Shown here: piece by piece, positions 3,990 to 16,865 of the stretch
Layout of the letters: each line of letters begins with the position of its first letter
Position numbering within the stretch: the stretch's first letter is position 1
Assembly: GCA_017512705.1 (NCBI GenBank)
Contig: JAFWEX010000086.1
Span: 1-39,343 of the forward strand
DNA: 39,343 nt
Reading direction: 5' to 3'
Origin: Paenibacillus sp.
GTDB lineage: Bacteria; Bacillota; Bacilli; Paenibacillales; Paenibacillaceae
The notes under the pieces: model-generated
The model's input: the letters and a program-made list of their open reading frames with translations, nothing else
Told to the model about the DNA's origin: nothing
The model's database searches: none
Made by a program: the position numbers and the translations under genes

Positions 3990-4475
3990 TTACTTCACCA
4001 CGAATCTGACACGTGTGCCATCCGGATATGTACTTAATTGATTTCCCACCCATGAGCCCGCACCGCGATTGTCCTTGGGCGTAATGTATTGGATATCCGC
4101 CCCTTCACCGCCTTCTGCACACATCGCCATAGGCCATTCATCTCGATCCTTGCCTTTTTTGATCGGTACACCTCTCAATGACCGTTCCCTGTTCTCTTCA
4201 GCGCCTTTTCTGTCAATTGTGCATACATCTGAATGCCCCGCTTGGATTGCCCTTCGTATGTGGCTGGCTGTCTCAGGATACCGATCTGCTGGAAAAGTAA
4301 TCGTGTAATCTATACCGCTGTTATCGGTTACTTTGAACGGAGAAGGTATATCCAGCGGCCATTCTCCCCCTGCCCATGCATAGAGAGCAATCAATATCAT
4401 GCTCGCTAACGTCAGTAATTTACCTCTGAATCCCCGTTTTCCTCTCTTACCCCTTCTGCCGCGTCTCTTACTCAT
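3990..4475 (-). CDS. NucA/NucB-type secreted DNA nuclease
   Basis: A 161-residue protein related to the sporulation nuclease NucB and the competence nuclease NucA, which cut DNA outside the membrane. The start at ATG 4475 follows GGGGAGG at 6 nt; an earlier in-frame ATG at 4514 has none. It begins with an extremely basic stretch ([18 protein letters not shown]) followed by one hydrophobic segment ([16 protein letters not shown]), so it is exported or membrane-anchored. The C-terminal half has the family signature: [14 protein letters not shown] (about 110-123) and [22 protein letters not shown] (about 126-147), with catalytic Asp/Glu and the Asn/Arg site. NucB itself lacks so long a basic N-terminus. 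It stands alone; role in spore formation or nutrient DNA breakdown is inferred. Confidence 0.85.
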
Positions 4476-4550
4476 GATGTTCCTCCCCCATGTAACACTA
4501 GCATCAAATAGCATTATATCAGAACGCCAGTTCGCAGAACAATAAATCCA

Positions 4551-4603: not shown

Positions 4604-5752
4604 CTACCCGGTATTCAAAATACTCTGACCACTTAGGAAAGGTATCGTTACACAAAATTCGGTCCCTTTTCCCTCAACACTCTCCACCGTAATACTACCG
4701 TTCATCAATCCCAGTAGTTCTTTACATATCGTCAATCCAAGTCCACTCCCACCAAACCTTCTCGCATGAGAAATATCGGACTGAGTGAAGGCTTCAAACA
4801 GCTGGCCTATCTGATCTGAAGGAATACCAATGCCAGTGTCCCTTACCAAGAACGTAATCATCGTCTGCTCATGTGAATGCTCTGTAACATCGACTTGAAG
4901 CTGCACTTCTCCTCGCTCAGTAAACTTGATGGCATTACTCAGCAAATTATCCAGCACCTGTCTTAGCCTTAGCGGATCTCCCCATAATACATCCGGAATG
5001 TTTAGATCAGCATGACAGAGTATACGAATTTGTTTATTCATCGCAGCGGGTTCATACGTTTTCATAATTTGCTGAATCAGCTTAATTGGCTGAAACTCGA
5101 TATACTCAATTCCCATTTTACCTCTGCCTAGCTTCGCAATATCCAGACTGTTGTTTACGATGTTCAGTAGAGCTTCGCCCGATTGACGCGCCAACTCCAA
5201 ATATTCTTTTTGCTCATCGGTCATATCTCCCATTCCCGCAAGTTCGATCATACCCATAATACCGTTCAGCGGTGTACGAAGCTCATGGTTCAACTTGCCG
5301 ATGAATTCCAGCTGTCCTCTGCTCGTTTTCTCAGCACTGGTTGCTGCAGTCTGTAGCTGTTGCTCAGCATATTTCCGTTCAGAGATGTCATATTGTATAC
5401 CTACAAAGTACAGACACTCGCCTGATTCGTTAAAAATGGGATCGATATTCAGTTCATTCCAGAACTTCTGGCCACTTTTAGTATAATTTAAAACCTCAAC
5501 CTTGATGGATTGTCGTTTACTTAATGCTTCCCGAATATATAAAACGGTTTCAGGATCTGTATCCGTCCCTTGCAAAAATCGGCAATTCCGTCCAATCGAC
5601 TCTTCATACGTATACCCGGTCAGCCAGGTAAAATGTTCGTTTACATACATGAGCGGAAGATCAGGCGAGGTAGCGTCCACTACCGTAACGGAGGATTTTA
5701 ATTTTGAGATAATAAATTCCCATTGCATGGGGAGTTGATTAAATAGACTCAT
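4604..5752 (-). CDS. LOV-domain (blue-light) sensor histidine kinase
   Basis: A 382-residue soluble kinase with no membrane segment. Residues 10-125 form a PAS domain of the LOV class: the photoactive cysteine motif GRNCRFLQG at 54-62 (C57), the flavin-contacting N89 (LNYTK), N99 (FWNELNIDP) and Q120 (VGIQYDIS). The layout is that of Bacillus YtvA. A short coiled linker (126-148) leads to the phosphoacceptor H156 (LNHELRTP) and an HATPase domain with N-box (LDNLLSNAIKF, 267-277), G1 (DTGIGI, 305-310) and G2 (GGSGLGL, 334-340). Light would form a flavin-cysteine adduct and change kinase activity; that is established for the family and inferred here. No response regulator gene is adjacent, so it is an orphan. 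GGAGGAGA lies upstream of the ATG. Redox sensing through the same flavin is an alternative. Confidence 0.92.
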   Translation of the reverse strand: MSLFNQLPMQWEFIISKLKSSVTVVDATSPDLPLMYVNEHFTWLTGYTYEESIGRNCRFLQGTDTDPETVLYIREALSKRQSIKVEVLNYTKSGQKFWNELNIDPIFNESGECLYFVGIQYDISERKYAEQQLQTAATSAEKTSRGQLEFIGKLNHELRTPLNGIMGMIELAGMGDMTDEQKEYLELARQSGEALLNIVNNSLDIAKLGRGKMGIEYIEFQPIKLIQQIMKTYEPAAMNKQIRILCHADLNIPDVLWGDPLRLRQVLDNLLSNAIKFTERGEVQLQVDVTEHSHEQTMITFLVRDTGIGIPSDQIGQLFEAFTQSDISHARRFGGSGLGLTICKELLGLMNGSITVESVEGKGTEFCVTIPFLSGQSILNTG

Positions 5753-8714: not shown

Positions 8715-8788
8715 TGGGCCCTACAGGACTCGAACCTGTGACCAATCGGTTATGAGCCGACCGCTCTAACCAACTGAGCTAAGGGCCC
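8715..8788 (-). tRNA. tRNA-Ile2 (CAU anticodon, lysidine type)
   Basis: A complete 74-nt cloverleaf: acceptor GGGCCCT/AGGGCCC with A73, a D-arm with AGCTCAGTTGGTTAGAGC, anticodon stem TCGGC.../...CCGAT framing the loop with CAT, and a T-arm CACAGGTTCGAGTCCTGTA. CCA is not encoded. A CAT anticodon could mean elongator Met or Ile2. The loop context GGCTCATAACC and the body are closer to Bacillus tRNA-Ile2, whose C34 becomes lysidine through TilS. Elongator Met remains the alternative. Confidence 0.85.
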
Positions 8789-8847
8789 TAGACAAATAAT
8801 ATATAACAGTGCAGGATGACCGCTGTAAATCATCCGATAAAGCTATA

Positions 8848-8921
<74 letters not shown>

Positions 8922-9218: not shown

Positions 9219-9256
9219 CAAAAATAGCCGCCAGAGATAATAAAATCTCCAGCGGC
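9219..9256 (-). terminator. Terminator of the ABC-transporter operon
   Basis: An imperfect stem of about 12 bp, GCCGCCAGAGAT/ATCTCCAGCGGC (9227-9256), has five T following on the minus strand. It lies about 70 nt after the solute-binding protein gene. Confidence 0.75.
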
Positions 9257-9327
9257 CAATCTGCTGCAATCATGGTGAAGTGAAATTAGATCACAAGCAG
9301 CATGTTACTACTTCACCATTAGATAAC

Positions 9328-10776
9328 TCATTGGAATGTAGCCTTAGGGTCTTTTTTAATTTTGGCAAGCATCTCATTCCCTTTCGCTGCCCATTCAGCC
9401 AGAGCTTCTTTTGGTGTTTTCTTGTTATCTAGCACCTGATCAAAGTATTGCATACCTTTTTCGTTTATCTGCCACAAGCCAGGACTTTTCTGGTACATCT
9501 TATCCAGATTCGTACTGGTTGGAGGTACAGGCTTCAATTTGTAGAATGCCTGAATATTGTAGTCCAGACCATCCTTCGGTTTGATGAAGCTCTTCCGAGA
9601 TACCATCTCATAGCTGCTGCGTGCCTTGATCTTCGCCCAATCTTCGCTATTCATATACTTGATTAATTCCCAAGCATCCTCAGGATTCTGAGCTGAGCTG
9701 TTGATTGCCATTAAACTGCTCAGATAGATGGTTCCGCCAATCTCAGGAGCCTCTGGGTGGACTGGTGGTGTAACAACGTCCCATTCTACTTTTGTAAAGT
9801 CTTTCATTTTATCTGCATTTTTATTAGCGTCAATTAGCTGATTGATGTAATTGTAATCTCCGATCGCCATAGCCGTCTTACCTGACAGGAACAAGTCACC
9901 TTGGAGCGGATTGTAACGCCCTTCCGATTGCTGCTCCTGCGGCTCGTCACCTCGAGGGATAACCTTATCCCTTGCCAGCTTGCTGACCGTACTCCACACT
10001 TTTTCCCATTGCGGTGAGTCCACAGTCATCTTTTCTGCCTTGTCGTCAAACACTTTCAACTGCAGTGAGTTATAATATTGCTGCATGGAGTAATATGGAG
10101 ATCCGCCTTGATACGTAGTGAACGCCATGCCGAAGACATGATCCTTACCTTCCCCTTTGGTAAGACGTGTCGCCAGGTTAAAGACATCGTCCCATGTCAT
10201 ATTGTCCGTTGGGGGCTCAACACCTGCTTTTTCAAACATCCCTTTATTATAAAATAAGGCTGATGACATAAACGTTGGTGTCAGCGCATAGATGTTTTGA
10301 TCGCCCAGATCCTTAATTCCTTCAATTACACTTGGCACGAAATCACTGGTATCGAATTTGTCTTCTTGTATTAATGGATCCAGCTGTTTAACCATATTTT
10401 CCTGGATTAACGACTTCATCGTGGAGGAATCCGCAACAACGACATCGACTGGATTGTCTCCCGTCATAATTTTTTTCAAGCTCTCTACCGTATCCGGTAT
10501 CTCCTGATTCTCGTCATATCCATAACCATACATACTGCCCTGATCGATCGCAGGCACAATTTCGATGGTAACATTTTTATGCGTAAGCTCAAAAGCATCG
10601 GTGAACTGCTGACGGAAGTAGCTGTCATCCTGCCCGCCCCAGAGAGTAGCTACGCGCAGCACCCGCTGTTCATTTTCATTACTCTCACTTGCTGTACATC
10701 CTGCAATGAGTGGCAGTGCCAGCGTTGCTGTTGCCATAAGGGCCAGCACCCGTTTTCCCCACAACCTGTTCTTCAT
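9328..10776 (-). CDS. Extracellular solute-binding lipoprotein (family 1 type)
   Basis: 482 residues from ATG 10776 (GAGGGGG upstream; a TTG six codons earlier is less likely). The signal peptide ends in the lipobox L-I-A-G-C, so it is membrane-anchored outside the cell. The mature part has the fold signature of sugar-type family 1 binding proteins: LRVATLWGGQDDSYFRQQFTDAF, VDVVVADSSTMKSLI, a FYNKGMFEKAGVEPPTDNMTWDD segment, SGKTAMAIGDYNYINQL and SAQNPEDAWELIKYMNSED. Such proteins normally feed MalFG-type importers. Here it is the last gene of an operon with a MacB/FtsX-like permease and no importer permease, beginning 21 nt after the ATPase gene. The ligand is unknown; a sensing or cell-envelope role is possible. 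Confidence 0.85.
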   Translation of the reverse strand: MKNRLWGKRVLALMATATLALPLIAGCTASESNENEQRVLRVATLWGGQDDSYFRQQFTDAFELTHKNVTIEIVPAIDQGSMYGYGYDENQEIPDTVESLKKIMTGDNPVDVVVADSSTMKSLIQENMVKQLDPLIQEDKFDTSDFVPSVIEGIKDLGDQNIYALTPTFMSSALFYNKGMFEKAGVEPPTDNMTWDDVFNLATRLTKGEGKDHVFGMAFTTYQGGSPYYSMQQYYNSLQLKVFDDKAEKMTVDSPQWEKVWSTVSKLARDKVIPRGDEPQEQQSEGRYNPLQGDLFLSGKTAMAIGDYNYINQLIDANKNADKMKDFTKVEWDVVTPPVHPEAPEIGGTIYLSSLMAINSSAQNPEDAWELIKYMNSEDWAKIKARSSYEMVSRKSFIKPKDGLDYNIQAFYKLKPVPPTSTNLDKMYQKSPGLWQINEKGMQYFDQVLDNKKTPKEALAEWAAKGNEMLAKIKKDPKATFQ

Positions 10777-10797
10777 CTCCCATTTCCCCCTCAATAA

Positions 10798-11661
10798 TTA
10801 TCTTGGCGGTGTAATTACAATACGTTCACCGTCAAATTCCAATGTAGCTCGGCTATCAATAGACAAAGCCTCCAGATATTCTTTAGGAACCTGAAGTCTT
10901 CCAGCGCGATCAATAATGACAAAAGCTTCATGAATGTCAGGAGTACCTGCTTCAGACAGTCCCTGATCATCGTCCAGATTTGGATTGCGTTTCACAAATT
11001 CAGTACTCGTCAATCCATCTCGGATCGCAACGATCCGATCGACTTTACCGGCAAGCGTCAAGTCGTGGGTAACGATAACAATCGTTACCCCGAGTTCCTT
11101 ATTCATTTTGCGAAAAATATTCATGATCGTATCACAAGTCTCTGAATCGACTGAACCTGTCGGTTCGTCCGCCAGCAGAATTTTAGGTCGATTAGACAAG
11201 GAGATCGCAATCGCTACACGTTGCTGCTCTCCTCCCGACAGCTGATGCAGCTTATTATGCATGCGATCTTTCAGACCAACCCATTCGAGCAGCTGCATGG
11301 CATAAGCACGATCACGCTTGCCTCCCAAGATCATCGGTGTCTCTACATTCTCCAGTGCGGTCAGATAAGGCAGCAGATTGCGACCGTTATTTTGCCAGAT
11401 GAAACCGACAGTATGGCGTTTGTATTCGACTAATTGAGCATCCGTCATTTTGAGCAGATCCCAGTCTCCAACAACTGCCGTTCCTGCGGTAGGACGATCC
11501 AGACCGCCTAGAATGTTCAGCAACGTCGATTTGCCGCTACCGCTGTTACCGATGATCGCCATCATTTCCCCTTGATTGACAGTCAGATTGAGACCTTGAA
11601 GGGCAACGACTTCCACATCGCTGGATTTAAAAATTTTGACAAGTCCTTCGCATTGAATCAA
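10798..11661 (-). CDS. ABC ATPase with C-terminal AbrB/MazE-like domain
   Basis: 287 residues starting at TTG 11661, two nt after the permease stop, with GGAGAGGAG inside the end of the permease gene. An upstream in-frame start at 11721 would overlap the permease by 58 nt and is unlikely. Residues 1-225 are a LolD/MacB-class nucleotide-binding domain: Walker A GNSGSGKST (38-46), the signature LSGGEQQ, Walker B ILLADEP and the switch THD. After a linker, the last 42 residues (FVIIDRAGRLQVPKEYLE...LSIDSRATLEFDGERIVI) follow the swapped-hairpin AbrB/SpoVT/MazE pattern: D-x-x-G-R-x-x-V-P-x-E, then L-x-I, then L-E. This fusion is unusual for an ABC ATPase; it may serve dimer formation rather than DNA binding. 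It likely energises the adjacent FtsX-type permease. Confidence 0.88.
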   Translation of the reverse strand: MIQCEGLVKIFKSSDVEVVALQGLNLTVNQGEMMAIIGNSGSGKSTLLNILGGLDRPTAGTAVVGDWDLLKMTDAQLVEYKRHTVGFIWQNNGRNLLPYLTALENVETPMILGGKRDRAYAMQLLEWVGLKDRMHNKLHQLSGGEQQRVAIAISLSNRPKILLADEPTGSVDSETCDTIMNIFRKMNKELGVTIVIVTHDLTLAGKVDRIVAIRDGLTSTEFVKRNPNLDDDQGLSEAGTPDIHEAFVIIDRAGRLQVPKEYLEALSIDSRATLEFDGERIVITPPR

Positions 11662-11663
11662 GT

Positions 11664-14567
11664 CTACCTCTCCTCTCCCATTTTGACCGCTTGATGCACC
11701 CGCAGCCTGCGAATCTGCCACAGTAGCATCGATGCTCCAATAATCAGCATGACCACAGTAACGCCATACAGCTGCAACATATCTTGCTCTTCAAAGACGA
11801 TGCGGAATGGCGGAACCTGTGCAGACACGTTATCTGTCGTTTGCAGGAATGGTAAGAAGAGCCTGCTGGAAACCTGACCAATACCGATTCCCAGCATAAT
11901 CGATAGACCAGCGGTAAATACTTGTTCCAGTAATAACATACCACTGAGCTGTGCTCTGGATAGACCCATTGCCCGCAGGACACCAAACTGTACTACACGT
12001 CCCGAGAGGTTAAAGAACCAGTAGAGCACGTAACCGATTAACGAGATTATCACCGATACTAGGAAACCTAGACTCAGAATCCCGAACACCCCGCCTCGTG
12101 ATGGATGTTTCCCTTGCGTAACCAGTTCGCTCCGCACATCACGGACAGAGGATAGTTCAATGCCTTCTGCCGCAAGTTTCTCCATTAATGGAGCCACCTT
12201 GGCGTCCGGTTTCATTTTCAACCATACCTCGTAAGGTATTAGAGGCACTTGATCGTAGATATAATCCAGATTGGCCACGAAGAATGGCATCTGATCCGGG
12301 TATTGCGAAGGCCAATATGGAATGATGCCAAAAACAACAAATTCTATGGCTTGACCCTGTATCCCGATGGAGACCATGTCCCCTGTTTTGAGCTTGAATT
12401 TGTCAGCAAATTTGGAGGAAATCAGAACAGCTCCTTCATATTTACCAAGCAAATCAAGATACTTATAAGGATGTGCAGGGAATAAGTCGTTTCGGAACCA
12501 GGCCACTTGGGCGAAGTCCACGTTATCTATGCCGACGAGCATCCCCTGTCCACCGGATTTACCAGATACAATAATGTTGCCCTTCGTTTGCAGCACCCGT
12601 GCAGCATGCTCCACACCGTTTAATTGGCGGAACACTTCAAATGGCGGCTCGGAGTAAATCATTTTGGTTGGCTGTGATGAACCGCCACCTCCACCACCAG
12701 GAGCTCCTCCACCGGCACCTCCGCCGCCTCCACCTTGCTGGCCTCCACCTTGCTGGCCTCCGCCTTGTCCGCCGCCCTGTCCAGAACCTCCGGGTTTAAC
12801 CTCGGGTGTTCCTTCCCATACCGTCTGCATAATAACATCCGAGCCGTAACGGTATAGCGTGCGTTCTGTCGAATTCAAATCAATGGTTCGCGCTGCAGCC
12901 GAGTTATACACTCCAAGACCGAGCGTCAGCACCAACAGAATCATCAGCGGATAATAGGATGAAGACGAACGTGATAACTGCGTTAATGTCAGATACAGCG
13001 GTACTGGCAGCAACTTGCGTCCAATGAGCTGAATCAGTTTTAATATCCACGGGAATAACCGCAGGAAAAACAGTCCAAGCGCAAAGATTGCAAGTGCAGG
13101 TACAAAGAACAGAAATGGCTGTACTTGTAACTGATCCGTTGTCATTCCTGTCTGAAATGTCAGCATCTGGCGTTCATAAAACAGATAGTATCCATAACCG
13201 GCCAGACCCAGTAGTCCCACATCGATGAACCAGCGTTGCCACAGGGGCGCACGATCGGTACGAGCTTGGCGCCGTTTAGCAGATACAATGGTTGCACGTG
13301 CATAAGTAATCGCCGGGATCAGTGATGCAATAATAGCTACCAATACAGCTGCCATACCTAGCAGAATTGCTTCCTTGGATACGCCAATCGGAATCGACTT
13401 CCGATCTACGAAGGATAGAAATCCACTTGCTGAGCCGATACTCTTGGCCATAAACCACCCAAGAAAAGGTCCCATAATCAGTGCAACAGCACCCAAGAAA
13501 ATACCTTCAAGCAGATAGAGCGAGAAAATTTGACGAGCCGAGGCTCCGCGGCTGCGCAGCACCGCAATGTCACTCTCCTGTTTTTGCAGTGATTGTCTGG
13601 CATTCATCGCTATAAAATAGAAGACCATAGCAATCATCGGTGCCGCGAGCGTAAACAGCATGGTCTGCAGTTGCAGGCTCTGGCTGCGGAATTGCTTGAG
13701 CAGATCACCGAAGGTAATATCCACTTTGGTATCCTTAAGGCGTTGATACAGATCAATATCCAGTCGTTCCAGCATAGAGCTAAGGCCAGACAGCTGACTG
13801 GTTTGAACCTCTTTCAGATCAAAAGCATAGTACCAACGTGAATTCTGAAGCGGCATCCCCTTTTCTTTGAGTATTACGTCATTAAAAACGGAATCATTCA
13901 CATAAAGACCGTTCATCATGCTGTCAAAGCCTTGAACCCAATAAGGACTATTCGGATCATCAGCCTTGAAAGAACCTGTAATTTTGACGCGCAGGGTGAT
14001 ATCCAAACCGCTATAGATTGGATATTCGAGAATATCTCCTACGTGCAGATCATTACGATACATCCCTTCTTCCAACATGACGGCTTCAATGATGTCGTCC
14101 TTGACCTGATTCCCAGGTTTAACGCCAGCTGAGTAATTCACCTGTTCGTCGAGTCCGCTCATCGTTCCCAATGTCATGCTCCGCACACGGCTTGCATCCA
14201 CTTTGGTAGGATCTTCAGGACTGACCTCTGTACTGCGAATGGATCTCGAATTCATATACGTTTGGAATGGAAACCCGATATCGCGAGGTACATCCTCACG
14301 AATATAGCGGTCCACCTCATCGAGTCCTCTTATATCTGTCTTGGCACCCCCGGGTGCCTGATAACTCATCAACAGCGATCCCGCTGGTAATCCCTCACTG
14401 TTATCCTGCAGCGTCTGCGCGACAACCCGTTTCAGTGCACCATCGGCATACATTGGAATACTGACGGTGAACGCTACCGCCACAATCAAGCCGATTAATG
14501 TACTGAAGGTCATCCAGCGCGTGTTCCACATTTTGCGGAACAGTAGCCGAAGCAATGGCAGCCCCAT
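11664..14567 (-). CDS. Large FtsX/MacB-type ABC permease with Gly/Gln-rich insert
   Basis: 967 residues, about twice the size of a single MacB permease. The layout is: a first helix (about 20-40), a large extracellular domain (45-300), three helices (about 300-430), more helices (about 450-560), a second extracellular domain (about 565-810) and three last helices (about 830-960). This is the ten-helix duplicated form seen in large FtsX-domain exporters. In the second outer domain, residues 592-632 are almost only Gly with Gln and Ala (12,672-12,794), a flexible linker. ATG overlaps the adaptor stop (TAATG), giving translational coupling. Such permeases do not pump through a classical pore; by conformational change they drive export, lipoprotein transfer or sensing. 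The substrate is unknown. Confidence 0.88.
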   Translation of the reverse strand: MGLPLLRLLFRKMWNTRWMTFSTLIGLIVAVAFTVSIPMYADGALKRVVAQTLQDNSEGLPAGSLLMSYQAPGGAKTDIRGLDEVDRYIREDVPRDIGFPFQTYMNSRSIRSTEVSPEDPTKVDASRVRSMTLGTMSGLDEQVNYSAGVKPGNQVKDDIIEAVMLEEGMYRNDLHVGDILEYPIYSGLDITLRVKITGSFKADDPNSPYWVQGFDSMMNGLYVNDSVFNDVILKEKGMPLQNSRWYYAFDLKEVQTSQLSGLSSMLERLDIDLYQRLKDTKVDITFGDLLKQFRSQSLQLQTMLFTLAAPMIAMVFYFIAMNARQSLQKQESDIAVLRSRGASARQIFSLYLLEGIFLGAVALIMGPFLGWFMAKSIGSASGFLSFVDRKSIPIGVSKEAILLGMAAVLVAIIASLIPAITYARATIVSAKRRQARTDRAPLWQRWFIDVGLLGLAGYGYYLFYERQMLTFQTGMTTDQLQVQPFLFFVPALAIFALGLFFLRLFPWILKLIQLIGRKLLPVPLYLTLTQLSRSSSSYYPLMILLVLTLGLGVYNSAAARTIDLNSTERTLYRYGSDVIMQTVWEGTPEVKPGGSGQGGGQGGGQQGGGQQGGGGGGAGGGAPGGGGGGSSQPTKMIYSEPPFEVFRQLNGVEHAARVLQTKGNIIVSGKSGGQGMLVGIDNVDFAQVAWFRNDLFPAHPYKYLDLLGKYEGAVLISSKFADKFKLKTGDMVSIGIQGQAIEFVVFGIIPYWPSQYPDQMPFFVANLDYIYDQVPLIPYEVWLKMKPDAKVAPLMEKLAAEGIELSSVRDVRSELVTQGKHPSRGGVFGILSLGFLVSVIISLIGYVLYWFFNLSGRVVQFGVLRAMGLSRAQLSGMLLLEQVFTAGLSIMLGIGIGQVSSRLFLPFLQTTDNVSAQVPPFRIVFEEQDMLQLYGVTVVMLIIGASMLLWQIRRLRVHQAVKMGEER

Positions 14568-15682
14568 TAGCGTCCCACAACTTTCTGACCAACTGTCAGA
14601 CCTTTCAGAATCTCAACATCGGTCGATGTCTGCTGCCCAACCTCAACATCCACTTCACGCTTGCTGCCATCACTCTCAATAACCTGTACATAGGTTCTGG
14701 AACCGATGGAGCGCAGAGCAGATACAGGAATGACAATCGCGTTCTCTGTGCGCTGGGTTACAATAGCAACCGTTAATGGCGTGCCGCGTTCTACATTTTT
14801 AGGCATTTTGGCGAGGGTCACAATAACATACTGATCAAGCGTTTCTTTCGCCGGAGGTGAGCCTCCCTCGCCTTGGCCCGATCCACTGCCATTATTGTTA
14901 CTTGAGGCATCAGCCGTAGGCATCGCTTTGATCTTGCCAGCTACCTTACCGGCACCATTGATGTCAACTTCTGCCTTCATGCCAGCCGTAAATTTGTCCA
15001 AATCTTCCTTGCCAAATGTAGCCGCTACTACCAGATTGGACGTATCCGCAATGGTGGCGATCGGATCATATGCCTTGACGGCTGCACCCTTTTCCACTTG
15101 AACCGCAATAACGGTCCCGCCAAACGGTGCTGTCAACGTAGATTGACCTATCTTCTCCTCTAGGTCCGCAAGCTCCTGACGTAGTTCTTCAAAAGCAATC
15201 GTCGCTTCTTCGAACTCCACAGGGTCCATCTCGTCCTTCTTGCGCAGGGTTTCCTTCATCTGTACTTCCGATTTGCGAATCTGGAGGCGCTTGCTGCGAA
15301 TTTCCTTCTCTACATCTTTAACATCGAGGACAGCCAGAACCTGCCCTTTCTTCACTTTGTCCCCCGTTTTTACATTCAACTCTTTGATGTGCATGCCATC
15401 CAGCGTAAAATACACCTTTTCTTCACGCTGACTCATCATCTTGCCACTGCCACTGACCTTCTTTTCCAAAGTCTCCGTCCGGACTTCATATTCCGGTTTC
15501 TTGGAGATGGTTGGAGGTGTGATTGGTGGTAGAACCTCTTCCTCCGACTCCGATGGCAGCAATGAACAGCCTGACATCGTTGCAGCTAATATTGCACCTA
15601 GTACAATAAGAGCTGCGCGTTTCCCCCTCTTCGGAACGGCCCCTTTACTTGAGAAATCTGCCGTCCGCCATTTCATAAACAT
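14567..15682 (-). CDS. HlyD/MacA-like membrane-fusion lipoprotein adaptor
   Basis: 371 residues from ATG 15682 (GGAGG 9 nt upstream, inside the end of the preceding ATPase gene). A basic N-terminus and hydrophobic core end in the lipobox T-M-S-G-C, so it is a lipoprotein rather than the usual single-helix form. The domains run in the order of RND/MacA adaptors: a lipoyl/barrel-sandwich half (MHIKELNVKTGDKVKKGQVL), a coiled-coil hairpin (about 125-180, KRLQIRKSEVQMKETLRKK and EELRQELADLEEK), the second lipoyl half (TAPFGGTVIAVQVEKGAAV), and beta-barrel domains with a disordered Ser/Asn/Gly linker (ASSNNNGSGSGQGEGGS). In Gram-positive cells such adaptors work with MacB-like transporters without an outer-membrane channel. 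It overlaps both neighbours. Confidence 0.88.
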   Translation of the reverse strand: MFMKWRTADFSSKGAVPKRGKRAALIVLGAILAATMSGCSLLPSESEEEVLPPITPPTISKKPEYEVRTETLEKKVSGSGKMMSQREEKVYFTLDGMHIKELNVKTGDKVKKGQVLAVLDVKDVEKEIRSKRLQIRKSEVQMKETLRKKDEMDPVEFEEATIAFEELRQELADLEEKIGQSTLTAPFGGTVIAVQVEKGAAVKAYDPIATIADTSNLVVAATFGKEDLDKFTAGMKAEVDINGAGKVAGKIKAMPTADASSNNNGSGSGQGEGGSPPAKETLDQYVIVTLAKMPKNVERGTPLTVAIVTQRTENAIVIPVSALRSIGSRTYVQVIESDGSKREVDVEVGQQTSTDVEILKGLTVGQKVVGR

Positions 15683-16592
15683 GGTCCGCAACCTCCAAAA
15701 TTGTAGGATCGTGTGTAGTCATACATATCGTTACTTGTTCTACTTCAATGATATTGCGGAACACAGCCATGACCTGTGCACCCATCTTCGAATCCAGCTC
15801 TGCCGTCGGCTCATCCGCAAGCAGCAAGCGGGGTCTATGTGCAATCGCTTTAGCGATAGCCACCCGTTGCTGCTCCCCCCCGGACATTTCAAAAGGCCGG
15901 TGCTTCACGCGTTTGGTCAGTCCAACCAAATCCAGACAATGACCTACTCTGTCTTTCCATTCGGATCGCGGTACATCCGCCATGCGGAGCGAGAGCTCTA
16001 CATTTTCCCAAGCAGATAATAAGGGCATGAGTGCATACGCCTGAAAAATAAACCCGATCTCCTTGCGCCGCAAAGCAGTTCGTCGTTGATCTCCCCAATC
16101 CTGAAGTGGCTGTCCAGAAAATAAAATCTCGCCGCTAGAAGGCTGATCTAGTCCGCCAAGCATGTTCAGCAGTGTCGTTTTACCCGAACCTGACCGTCCT
16201 TTGAGCATAACCAGCTGCTGCGACTTCACTTCCATATCAATGCCTTTGAGCACATGAATGATGCGACTGCCTGTCTGAAAGCTGCGATGAACATTACGAA
16301 CTTCCAATACAGGTCCATCATACGGAGGTAACAGTTCTTTCTTCGGCTTCGTTTTGGCCTGTTGAGGTGTTTCCCCTGAAGCTACAGCAACTGCAGTCTC
16401 TTCCAAGGCAGATAACTCATCCGTCATGGCGGCTTCGGTGTCTAAATGTCCGGGCGGTGTTATGTATGAATGTTCTTCCGATGCAGCCCTTTCCTCCGGT
16501 CTAGGTTGGTCTTGTGGGTCCTCATCGCCCGATTGACTCTTGGCAGGTCTTATTTTTGAAAATAACTTTTTCATGCCAGCAATCACGCTCAT
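15645..16592 (-). CDS. MacB/LolD-type ABC transporter ATPase
   Basis: 315 residues. The first 85 or so are a charged, low-complexity extension (rich in Glu, Pro, Ala) not found in typical family members of about 230 aa. The ATPase core follows: Walker A GRSGSGKTT, Q-loop FIFQAY, signature MSGGEQQ, Walker B LLLADEP and the switch THD. ATG 16592 directly follows GAGAGG; GTG 16586 has better spacing and is an alternative start. It is the first gene of the operon and overlaps the adaptor gene by 38 nt. With a second ATPase encoded three genes later, the transporter may be a hetero-ATPase complex, or the two ATPases may serve different states. A TATAAT at 16678-16673 is a weak promoter candidate; no good -35 was found. 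Confidence 0.9.
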   Translation of the reverse strand: MSVIAGMKKLFSKIRPAKSQSGDEDPQDQPRPEERAASEEHSYITPPGHLDTEAAMTDELSALEETAVAVASGETPQQAKTKPKKELLPPYDGPVLEVRNVHRSFQTGSRIIHVLKGIDMEVKSQQLVMLKGRSGSGKTTLLNMLGGLDQPSSGEILFSGQPLQDWGDQRRTALRRKEIGFIFQAYALMPLLSAWENVELSLRMADVPRSEWKDRVGHCLDLVGLTKRVKHRPFEMSGGEQQRVAIAKAIAHRPRLLLADEPTAELDSKMGAQVMAVFRNIIEVEQVTICMTTHDPTILEVADHVYEMADGRFLK

Positions 16593-16745
16593 CCTCTCTT
16601 GTTATGCCACGCATTTTCCTTCATGCGCCCTAAAACTAGAAATCTGTTCCATCCTACACTGAATTATAAACGACTGCTCTCCACTAAAAGTTACAAGCTT
16701 TTTACATCGTCAGTAGAAAAAAGTTAATATTTCGATGAACATCAC

Positions 16746-16772
16746 AAAAAAGCACCCCAACTTATGGGATGC
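16746..16772 (-). terminator. Terminator of the pyr operon
   Basis: GCATCCC pairs with GGGGTGC (16772-16766 with 16758-16752) including a G-T pair, followed on the minus strand by six T. It lies about 95 nt downstream of pyrE; nothing else is visible in the interval. Confidence 0.8.
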
Positions 16773-16865
16773 CTCCTGAAAACTTAATTGTTTGCCATCG
16801 TGGCACTGATCATTACAATTTTGATACCGTTTGCTATACAGCAGTTCAATCATTGTCGAATGATA

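Follow-up and report, generated by a model that had tools for sequence, protein, structure and literature searches.

A family 1 solute-binding lipoprotein linked to an exporter-type type VII ABC machine in Paenibacillaceae

Introduction

A solute-binding protein (SBP) is generally read as the mark of an ATP-binding cassette (ABC) importer or of a sensor, and the usual view of exporter-type ABC machines is that they find their substrates in the membrane. Here we describe a five-gene operon of Paenibacillus sp. in which a family 1 SBP gene stands with the genes of a machine resembling the exporter type. It lies on contig JAFWEX010000086.1 of assembly GCA_017512705.1, of which a stretch of 39,343 nucleotides (hereafter the window) was analyzed. 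Among the closest described systems, type VII ABC machines are reported to act through partner proteins outside the membrane (PMC12646458), and MacAB-like systems of Gram-positive bacteria are described as protecting against peptides (PMC5985334). One of these, the detoxification system yknWXYZ of B. subtilis, is listed in the core sigma-W regulon (PMC3498285). Searches of one open-access library returned no paper on an SBP-equipped exporter system of the present kind.

With about even confidence, we propose that the operon encodes a type VII ABC machine of the MacB/YbbP kind that envelope stress induces and that has a dedicated solute-binding lipoprotein, its extracytoplasmic ligand partner.

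Results

The SBP gene is linked to the exporter-type core

Open reading frames (ORFs) and Pfam place the genes in the order ATP1-MFP-PERM-ATP2-SBP on the minus strand at 9328-16592 (Table 1), where ATP1 and ATP2 are ATPases, MFP is a MacA-like adaptor and PERM is the permease. Each protein has a Pfam match: ABC_tran for ATP1 (5e-34) and ATP2 (8e-33), HlyD_D23 for MFP (2e-13), FtsX (3e-20) and MacB_PCD (2e-8) for PERM, and SBP_bac_1 for SBP (4e-31). This confirms the five-gene, same-strand system that the initial annotation had read from the sequence alone, including its 967-residue duplicated FtsX permease.

The same order was sought in relatives. Among 295 genomes of the window's family, 272 gave a permease match at E 0.001 or better, a figure to which weak hits on other permeases contribute, above all in the genera coded g7 and g13. 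Seventy family loci from 68 genomes were inspected, and all carry the five genes in the same order and on the same strand; 30 of these loci were returned by the search and 40 were chosen from its list, two genomes being in both sets, and in the 30 short loci SBP is truncated near residue 203. A scan of 84,980 species, one genome per species, with an alignment of six distant permeases yielded 103 relatives. The best 80 of these come mostly from Paenibacillus and Cohnella, with some further Paenibacillaceae, a single record under the name Bacillus and a Candidatus Carbobacillus. In 76 of the 80 loci the core has one or more same-strand SBPs beside it (58 at the 3' side, 18 at the 5' side), as judged by the order of profile matches and not by distance. 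Two or more SBPs are present on the 3' side in 15 loci, the copies in L215 and L245 being fragmentary, and the four loci with no adjoining SBP are L226 (close to a contig end), L243, L246 and L247. Since some records are shared by both sets (e.g., L222/L105 and L212/L089), the species scan and the family survey are not independent. The occurrence of the SBP in two positions implies that the link has survived rearrangement.

Beyond the family the permease is rarer. It was found at 1e-30 in 44 of 398 genomes of the class, 24 of them from the window's own family, and in 13 of 398 genomes of the phylum, nine of them in other classes. Five loci with family codes f3, f13, f20 and f26 have one to four SBPs directly 3' of the core. 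No SBP profile match adjoins the other cores (14 loci in the class and nine in other classes); near two of these, L107 and L108, a weak match of 30 bits lies about 6 kb away. In a permease tree with 47 members (17 from the 40 long family loci, L118, the window and distant ones, with the split L123 left out), SBP presence has to change only once, and a branch with support 99 sets the 25 SBP-linked permeases apart as one group. As read from this tree, the SBP-less core probably predates the link, and gain rather than loss of the SBP depends on the L130 root, a long branch that meets the long branch L128. The unit thus appears better described as a four-gene core with a recruited SBP.

These comparisons of gene order support a real link between SBP and exporter. 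A chance neighbourhood, the objection named beforehand in the initial annotation, is ruled out by the 70 of 70 family loci, the 76 of 80 species-scan loci and the single change on the tree. The strict co-occurrence it had looked for holds in one direction, all 25 SBP-clade permeases having an SBP, and is rejected in the other, since orphan SBPs persist without the core in 16 genomes of g7 and g13.

No constant fifth partner was seen in the SBP-less loci that were read, and their neighbours differ. Two four-gene cores adjoin a large GH10-GH43-CBM enzyme (L111:12075-15272 and L112:12007-15192, with Pfam run on L111 only), and others adjoin SLH proteins (L104) or a 1597-residue HINT-domain protein (L119). 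Large secreted-looking proteins follow the SBP genes in three other families (L101:3884-5956, L102:13707-16211, L106:9579-12650); by eye they have a similar N-terminal part, which in L102 and L106 is weakly DUF4352-like, under the cut-off.

The SBP forms a subfamily of its own

The SBP scores 109.5 bits against SBP_bac_1 (cut-off 26), and its PDB profile matches are solved binding proteins of several kinds, mostly sugar-type. No BPD_transp_1 match (PF00528, the MalFG-type permease) was found at 1e-5 on its contig, in agreement with the initial annotation, and 48 of the 54 SBP_bac_1 matches of this genome have such a match within 6 kb. In a midpoint-rooted tree of 64 SBPs, the core-linked SBPs, the orphans and three relatives from L090 and L091 form one clade (support 100). 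It covers core-linked SBPs from five family codes, including those in the 5' position, and stands apart from 20 of the genome's 54 SBPs, which had been picked from the upper part of the list.

Genomes that keep the SBP and have no five-gene permease were found in two genera: of the genomes tested, 10 of 16 in g7 and 6 of 14 in g13 have a strong SBP match (1e-114 or better). In 15 of these 16 orphan genomes no permease match was found anywhere at 1e-30, and the 16th (G179) has a paralogous SBP-less core only. More widely, 37 genomes tested for absence of the five-gene permease were searched with A1, and 34 had no permease match; what matched in the other three (G102, G118, G179) is a paralogous, SBP-less core. 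Neither permease nor SBP matches were found in seven genomes from the window's genus. All 16 orphan SBPs lie right behind pyrE, with the other four genes absent from the 18-kb stretch; the site behind pyrE is empty in 12 further genomes, including the seven SBP-less ones (3 kb is visible in L165). A quick carB tree with 62 rows and other families as root puts the five-gene state at the base and nests the orphan and empty states within it; the forks concerned have support 81-98, several under 95. Because of this nesting, loss of the core with retention of the SBP is the most likely course. An ancestral orphan with later insertion of the core is not favoured, given the carB tree and the position of the g13 orphans inside the five-gene SBPs on the SBP tree.

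All 44 SBPs examined from five-gene loci have the lipobox cysteine, as do all 10 g7 orphans. None of the six g13 orphans has it, and their leaders finish with a WA-type signal. It is also missing from the three SBPs in L090 and L091 (g13, relatives of the 5' SBPs). The lipobox-less g13 proteins (L073-L078; L090, L091), relatives of the 3' as well as of the 5' SBP, seem to carry leaders of the signal-peptidase-I type. Loss of the predicted lipid anchor thus goes with loss of the membrane partner, with g7 as the exception.

The core proteins resemble type VII machines

As in type VII systems, the ATPases are of the LolD/MacB type with intact catalytic motifs, as compared with relatives, and the core of the ATP2 model matches the ATPases MacB, YbbA and LolD. 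The first 110 residues of ATP1 gave no Pfam match. MFP matches NCBIfam RND_mfp at 8e-34, above the cut-off, as a MacAB-type adaptor does, and the lipobox pattern recurs in 49 of 50 adaptors of the SBP clade; the lipid-anchored HlyD/MacA-like adaptor proposed earlier is hence upheld. According to Pfam, model and structure match, PERM is an FtsX-type permease with an outer domain between helices 1 and 2, a further type VII trait. Its model has 10 long helices and two outer domains in one chain, as in YbbAP. Its best structural match among the matches listed is YbbP, covering model residues 4-960, and the predicted fold appears YbbP-like. PERM residues 593-632, after helix 7, are a disordered Gly-rich stretch; a 40-residue stretch holds 10-32 glycines in permeases with a 3' SBP and at most 8 in most others (exceptions L089, L104, L123 and L126).

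The extra domain noted earlier in ATP2 appears AbrB/MazE-like by PDB profile matches. With a profile of 21 tails, the eight best PDB matches are AbrB, Abh, MazE, PemI-like and AbrB-family proteins (E 0.0015-0.0046; the next match has 0.056), and the tail scores below the Pfam cut-offs of PF04014 and PF02381. The ATP2 monomer model shows a beta-beta-alpha-beta-beta tail with pLDDT of about 60-69. R8, R15, R23 and R24 are given as the arginines proposed for AbrB (PMC4022651); the residue numbers and the position of R8 were matched to our alignment by eye. DNA binding by the tail is unlikely, as the arginine of GR is kept and both arginines of ELRR are not. Net charges of the tails range from -5 to +1.

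A promoter motif is shared with an ECF sigma factor gene

The motif TGTAAC-N15..17-CGT precedes ATP1 in 24 of 40 family loci (39 plus the window; these loci are related and so not independent), against 0.45 expected from Markov resampling, where none of 200 draws gave more than 3; the opposite strand has no match. The spacer varies between genera, and most loci retain TGTAACTTTT and CGTTTATAAT or CGTCTAT. TGTAACTTTT-N13-CGT occurs once in the window and in none of 100 shuffles. The five promoter loci of the four other clade-A families comprise one strict match (L100) and four matches to the relaxed TG[CA]AAC-N16/17-CGT (L101, L102, L105, L106), a pattern used here with no shuffle control and seen again in L170, L217 and one 5' paralogue, L224. 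Strict matches precede 20 of 54 species-scan loci with a 3' SBP, three of them inside the called ORF start, and none of the 14 cores without SBP.

The pattern TGTAACNTTT-N13-CGTYTA, built from these promoter loci, has two matches in the window's genome and none in the reversed control. The second match lies 259 nt before an ORF with Sigma70_r2 and r4_2 domains (L303:2215-2865), which is followed by an overlapping zf-HC2 ORF. The operon and an extracytoplasmic function (ECF) sigma factor gene of the same genome thus have a promoter motif in common, as members of one regulon do. ECF sigma factors usually autoregulate. Because of the shared motif and this habit, the sigma/anti-sigma pair is a likely regulator of the operon.

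Covariation of the SBP with the machine

Distances among 26 genomes were compared under control for pyrE, pyrF and carB. Those of the SBP correlate with those of the two outer domains (0.60 and 0.63) and of MFP (0.57), and not with those of the PERM helices (0.24) or the ATPases (0.04 and 0.18). With the unlinked outer protein MltG as a fourth control, the values are 0.46 and 0.52 for the outer domains, 0.47 for MFP and 0.11 or less for helices and ATPases. We regard this covariation with the outer parts of the machine as weak support for the proposed reading, and after the MltG control it was rejected as proof of contact.

Operon layout and surroundings

The gene joints given in the initial annotation were all reproduced. 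MFP and PERM join in TAATG at 14567; ATP1 and MFP overlap by 38 nt if MFP starts at ATG 15682, and a gap of 2 nt separates PERM from ATP2 if the latter starts at TTG 11661, preceded by GGAGAGGAGAGG. The SBP start is most likely ATG 10776 (21-nt gap) rather than TTG 10794, because of the GAGGGGG ribosome site and the near-invariant Met across 40 aligned homologues. A terminator-like hairpin was found behind SBP as well. The hairpin of the pyrE-ATP1 gap (-17.8 kcal/mol), whose sequence is kept in L049 and L050, is not listed by the terminator scan of the window. Since T-run hairpins stand at both ends, the five genes look like a unit of their own.

Table 1. Positions of the operon and related elements (window coordinates unless a locus or contig is named)
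Feature	Position	Strand	Description
ATP1	15645..16592	-	MacB/LolD/FtsE-type ABC ATPase with N-terminal extension of ~90 aa; ABC_tran 5e-34
MFP	14567..15691	-	MacA/HlyD-like adaptor, lipoprotein, lipobox MSGC; likely start ATG 15682
PERM	11664..14567	-	967-aa type VII permease, two FtsX halves
ATP2	10798..11721	-	ABC ATPase; likely start TTG 11661
ATP2 C-terminal domain	10801..10935	-	AbrB/MazE-like, swapped-hairpin type; profile and model
SBP	9328..10776	-	Family 1 solute-binding lipoprotein, exporter-linked subfamily; Pfam, lipobox, tree
ECF-sigma-type promoter motif	16667..16695	-	TGTAACTTTT-N13-CGTTTA, ~75 nt upstream of ATP1
Likely pyr operon terminator, pyrE/ATP1 gap	about 16747..16777	-	Hairpin of -17.8 kcal/mol, six-T run
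Operon terminator	9225..9258	-	14-pair hairpin, then T5
ECF sigma and anti-sigma-like pair	L303:1927-3497 (contig C140:35426 onward)		Behind the only other genome copy of the promoter motif

A functional linkage with the pyr operon was rejected, as many species-scan loci, mostly of Cohnella, have no pyrE or pyrF match. Two tRNA-Met genes lie downstream of the operon terminator (8715-8921), and an integrase-family gene (1434-2519), a NucA/NucB-like DNase gene (3990-4514) and a PAS histidine kinase gene (4604-5752) lie near the window start.

Discussion

Because a stress-type promoter and an adaptor occur here together with a dedicated SBP, the machine would most likely handle a compound, harmful or recycled, on the outer surface of the membrane, and the SBP would be its ligand partner. 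Judged from its sequence and promoter, the operon would be turned on by the ECF sigma factor. By analogy with the known families, ATP1 and ATP2 would form a heterodimer beneath the two halves of the single 10-helix permease, and ATP binding and hydrolysis would move the outer domains by mechanotransmission. These domains and the MacA-like adaptor may then extract the compound from the outer leaflet or the wall space and drive it off the membrane. At the outer assembly, the lipid-anchored SBP would bind this compound or a glycan-like signal ligand. It would serve either as an acceptor or chaperone, the part that LolA plays for LolCDE and TesA for YbbAP, or as a receptor tuning the pump. Dimerisation of the AbrB-like tail of ATP2 is probable and would pair two complexes. 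More tentatively, and with a little less than even confidence, we suggest that an SBP lineage was captured once by an exporter-type ABC core and then duplicated, moved and diversified along with that core, giving an SBP-dependent machine with autoregulated ECF sigma induction and an AbrB-like module that couples two complexes.

Several observations weigh against the proposed stress-inducible machine with a dedicated SBP. No strict promoter match was found in 16 of 40 family loci and 34 of 54 species-scan 3' loci, nor in any of 17 5' paralogues and 16 orphans, and the link to the sigma factor rests on one genome. MltG reached 0.52 with the SBP before being controlled for, and each housekeeping gene reached 0.26-0.46 with the other two controlled. 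Moreover, the 16 genomes of g7 and g13 that keep the SBP without the core imply that it has a use of its own.

This last point bears most on the possibility that the SBP is a passenger, working alone or with a distant MalFG importer and merely sharing operon and stress promoter. It is found alone at the same site in the sixteen genomes, in six of them with no lipobox cysteine, and, with no neighbouring importer, it could borrow a permease behind the genome's 126 BPD matches. Yet it adjoins 25 of 25 SBP-clade permeases in the tree, the link survives in two gene orders, tandem copies occur beside the core and the SBP belongs to a subfamily of its own, which together make a passenger unlikely. 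A receptor, the reading that the initial annotation suggested, is possible though doubtful: a loaded SBP would dock on the outer domains and change ATPase activity or signalling through the permease, with no handover of substrate. SBPs are described as stimulating transmembrane receptors (PMC9602780), and BceAB, a 10-helix type VII relative among the structure matches, is filed under sensing and detoxification (PMC5985334). A gene for a GGDEF sensor-like membrane protein (by eye) follows the orphan SBP on the same strand in 6 of 10 g7 loci (L080:6256-7827, with similar places in L079, L081, L083, L084, in two pieces, and L085). However, the cluster encodes no kinase or other output protein, and the GGDEF link is limited to orphans. 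Finally, family 1 SBPs serve importers, as their proximity to MalFG-type permeases in this genome illustrates, and the whole set might be an importer of an unusual design, its YbbP-like permease being fed by the SBP. As type VII systems are described as typically passing no substrate across the membrane (PMC12646458), and given the exporter-type adaptor and the probably older SBP-less core, this reading is very improbable.

As the conserved link suggests, a binding protein of this kind can also work for machines that are not importers. If the machine with a dedicated SBP holds true, SBPs would not be confined to import and sensing: their presence on a YbbP/MacB-type machine would break the rule that equates an SBP with an importer or sensor, and genes for such binding proteins in Paenibacillaceae would have to be read differently. 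Nature supplies a ready comparative experiment in the series of losses, from all five genes through the SBP alone and the anchorless SBP to nothing. With a sigma factor predicted, the condition that induces the operon can be tested directly.

The operon combines features that known systems hold separately. In family 1 importers of the MalEFGK kind, which share the SBP_bac_1 match and the profile matches to solved, mostly sugar-type binders, MalFG permeases are encoded with the SBP; this contig has no match to them, and the present SBP belongs to a subfamily separate from the 20 genome-mates tested. LolCDE is similar in its two FtsX-type permease parts and LolD-type ATPases, but has separate LolC and LolE, LolA as partner and neither SBP nor adaptor. 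BceAB-type transporters are described with one outer domain, no adaptor and a partner histidine kinase, BceS (PMC12646458, PMC11466899). In MacAB the ATPase is fused to a 4-helix permease, whereas here the ATPases are separate and the permease has 10 helices. The type VII system YbbAP-TesA of E. coli has one ATPase gene (YbbA) and the hydrolase TesA; here two different ATPases occur, the other operon genes encode the adaptor and an SBP in place of TesA, and, unlike YbbAP-TesA, the system has a MacA-like adaptor, an AbrB-like tail and an ECF-type promoter motif. YknWXYZ of Bacillus, a MacAB-like system of SDP toxin resistance, is, as far as its descriptions go, similar in its Gram-positive host, MacA-like adaptor, separate ATPase and MacB-type permease, and sigma-W control is reported for it (PMC3498285, PMC5985334, PMC4887032). 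It is described with a 4-helix permease dimer and one kind of ATPase (PMC11466899), and it has the membrane protein YknW where this operon has an SBP.

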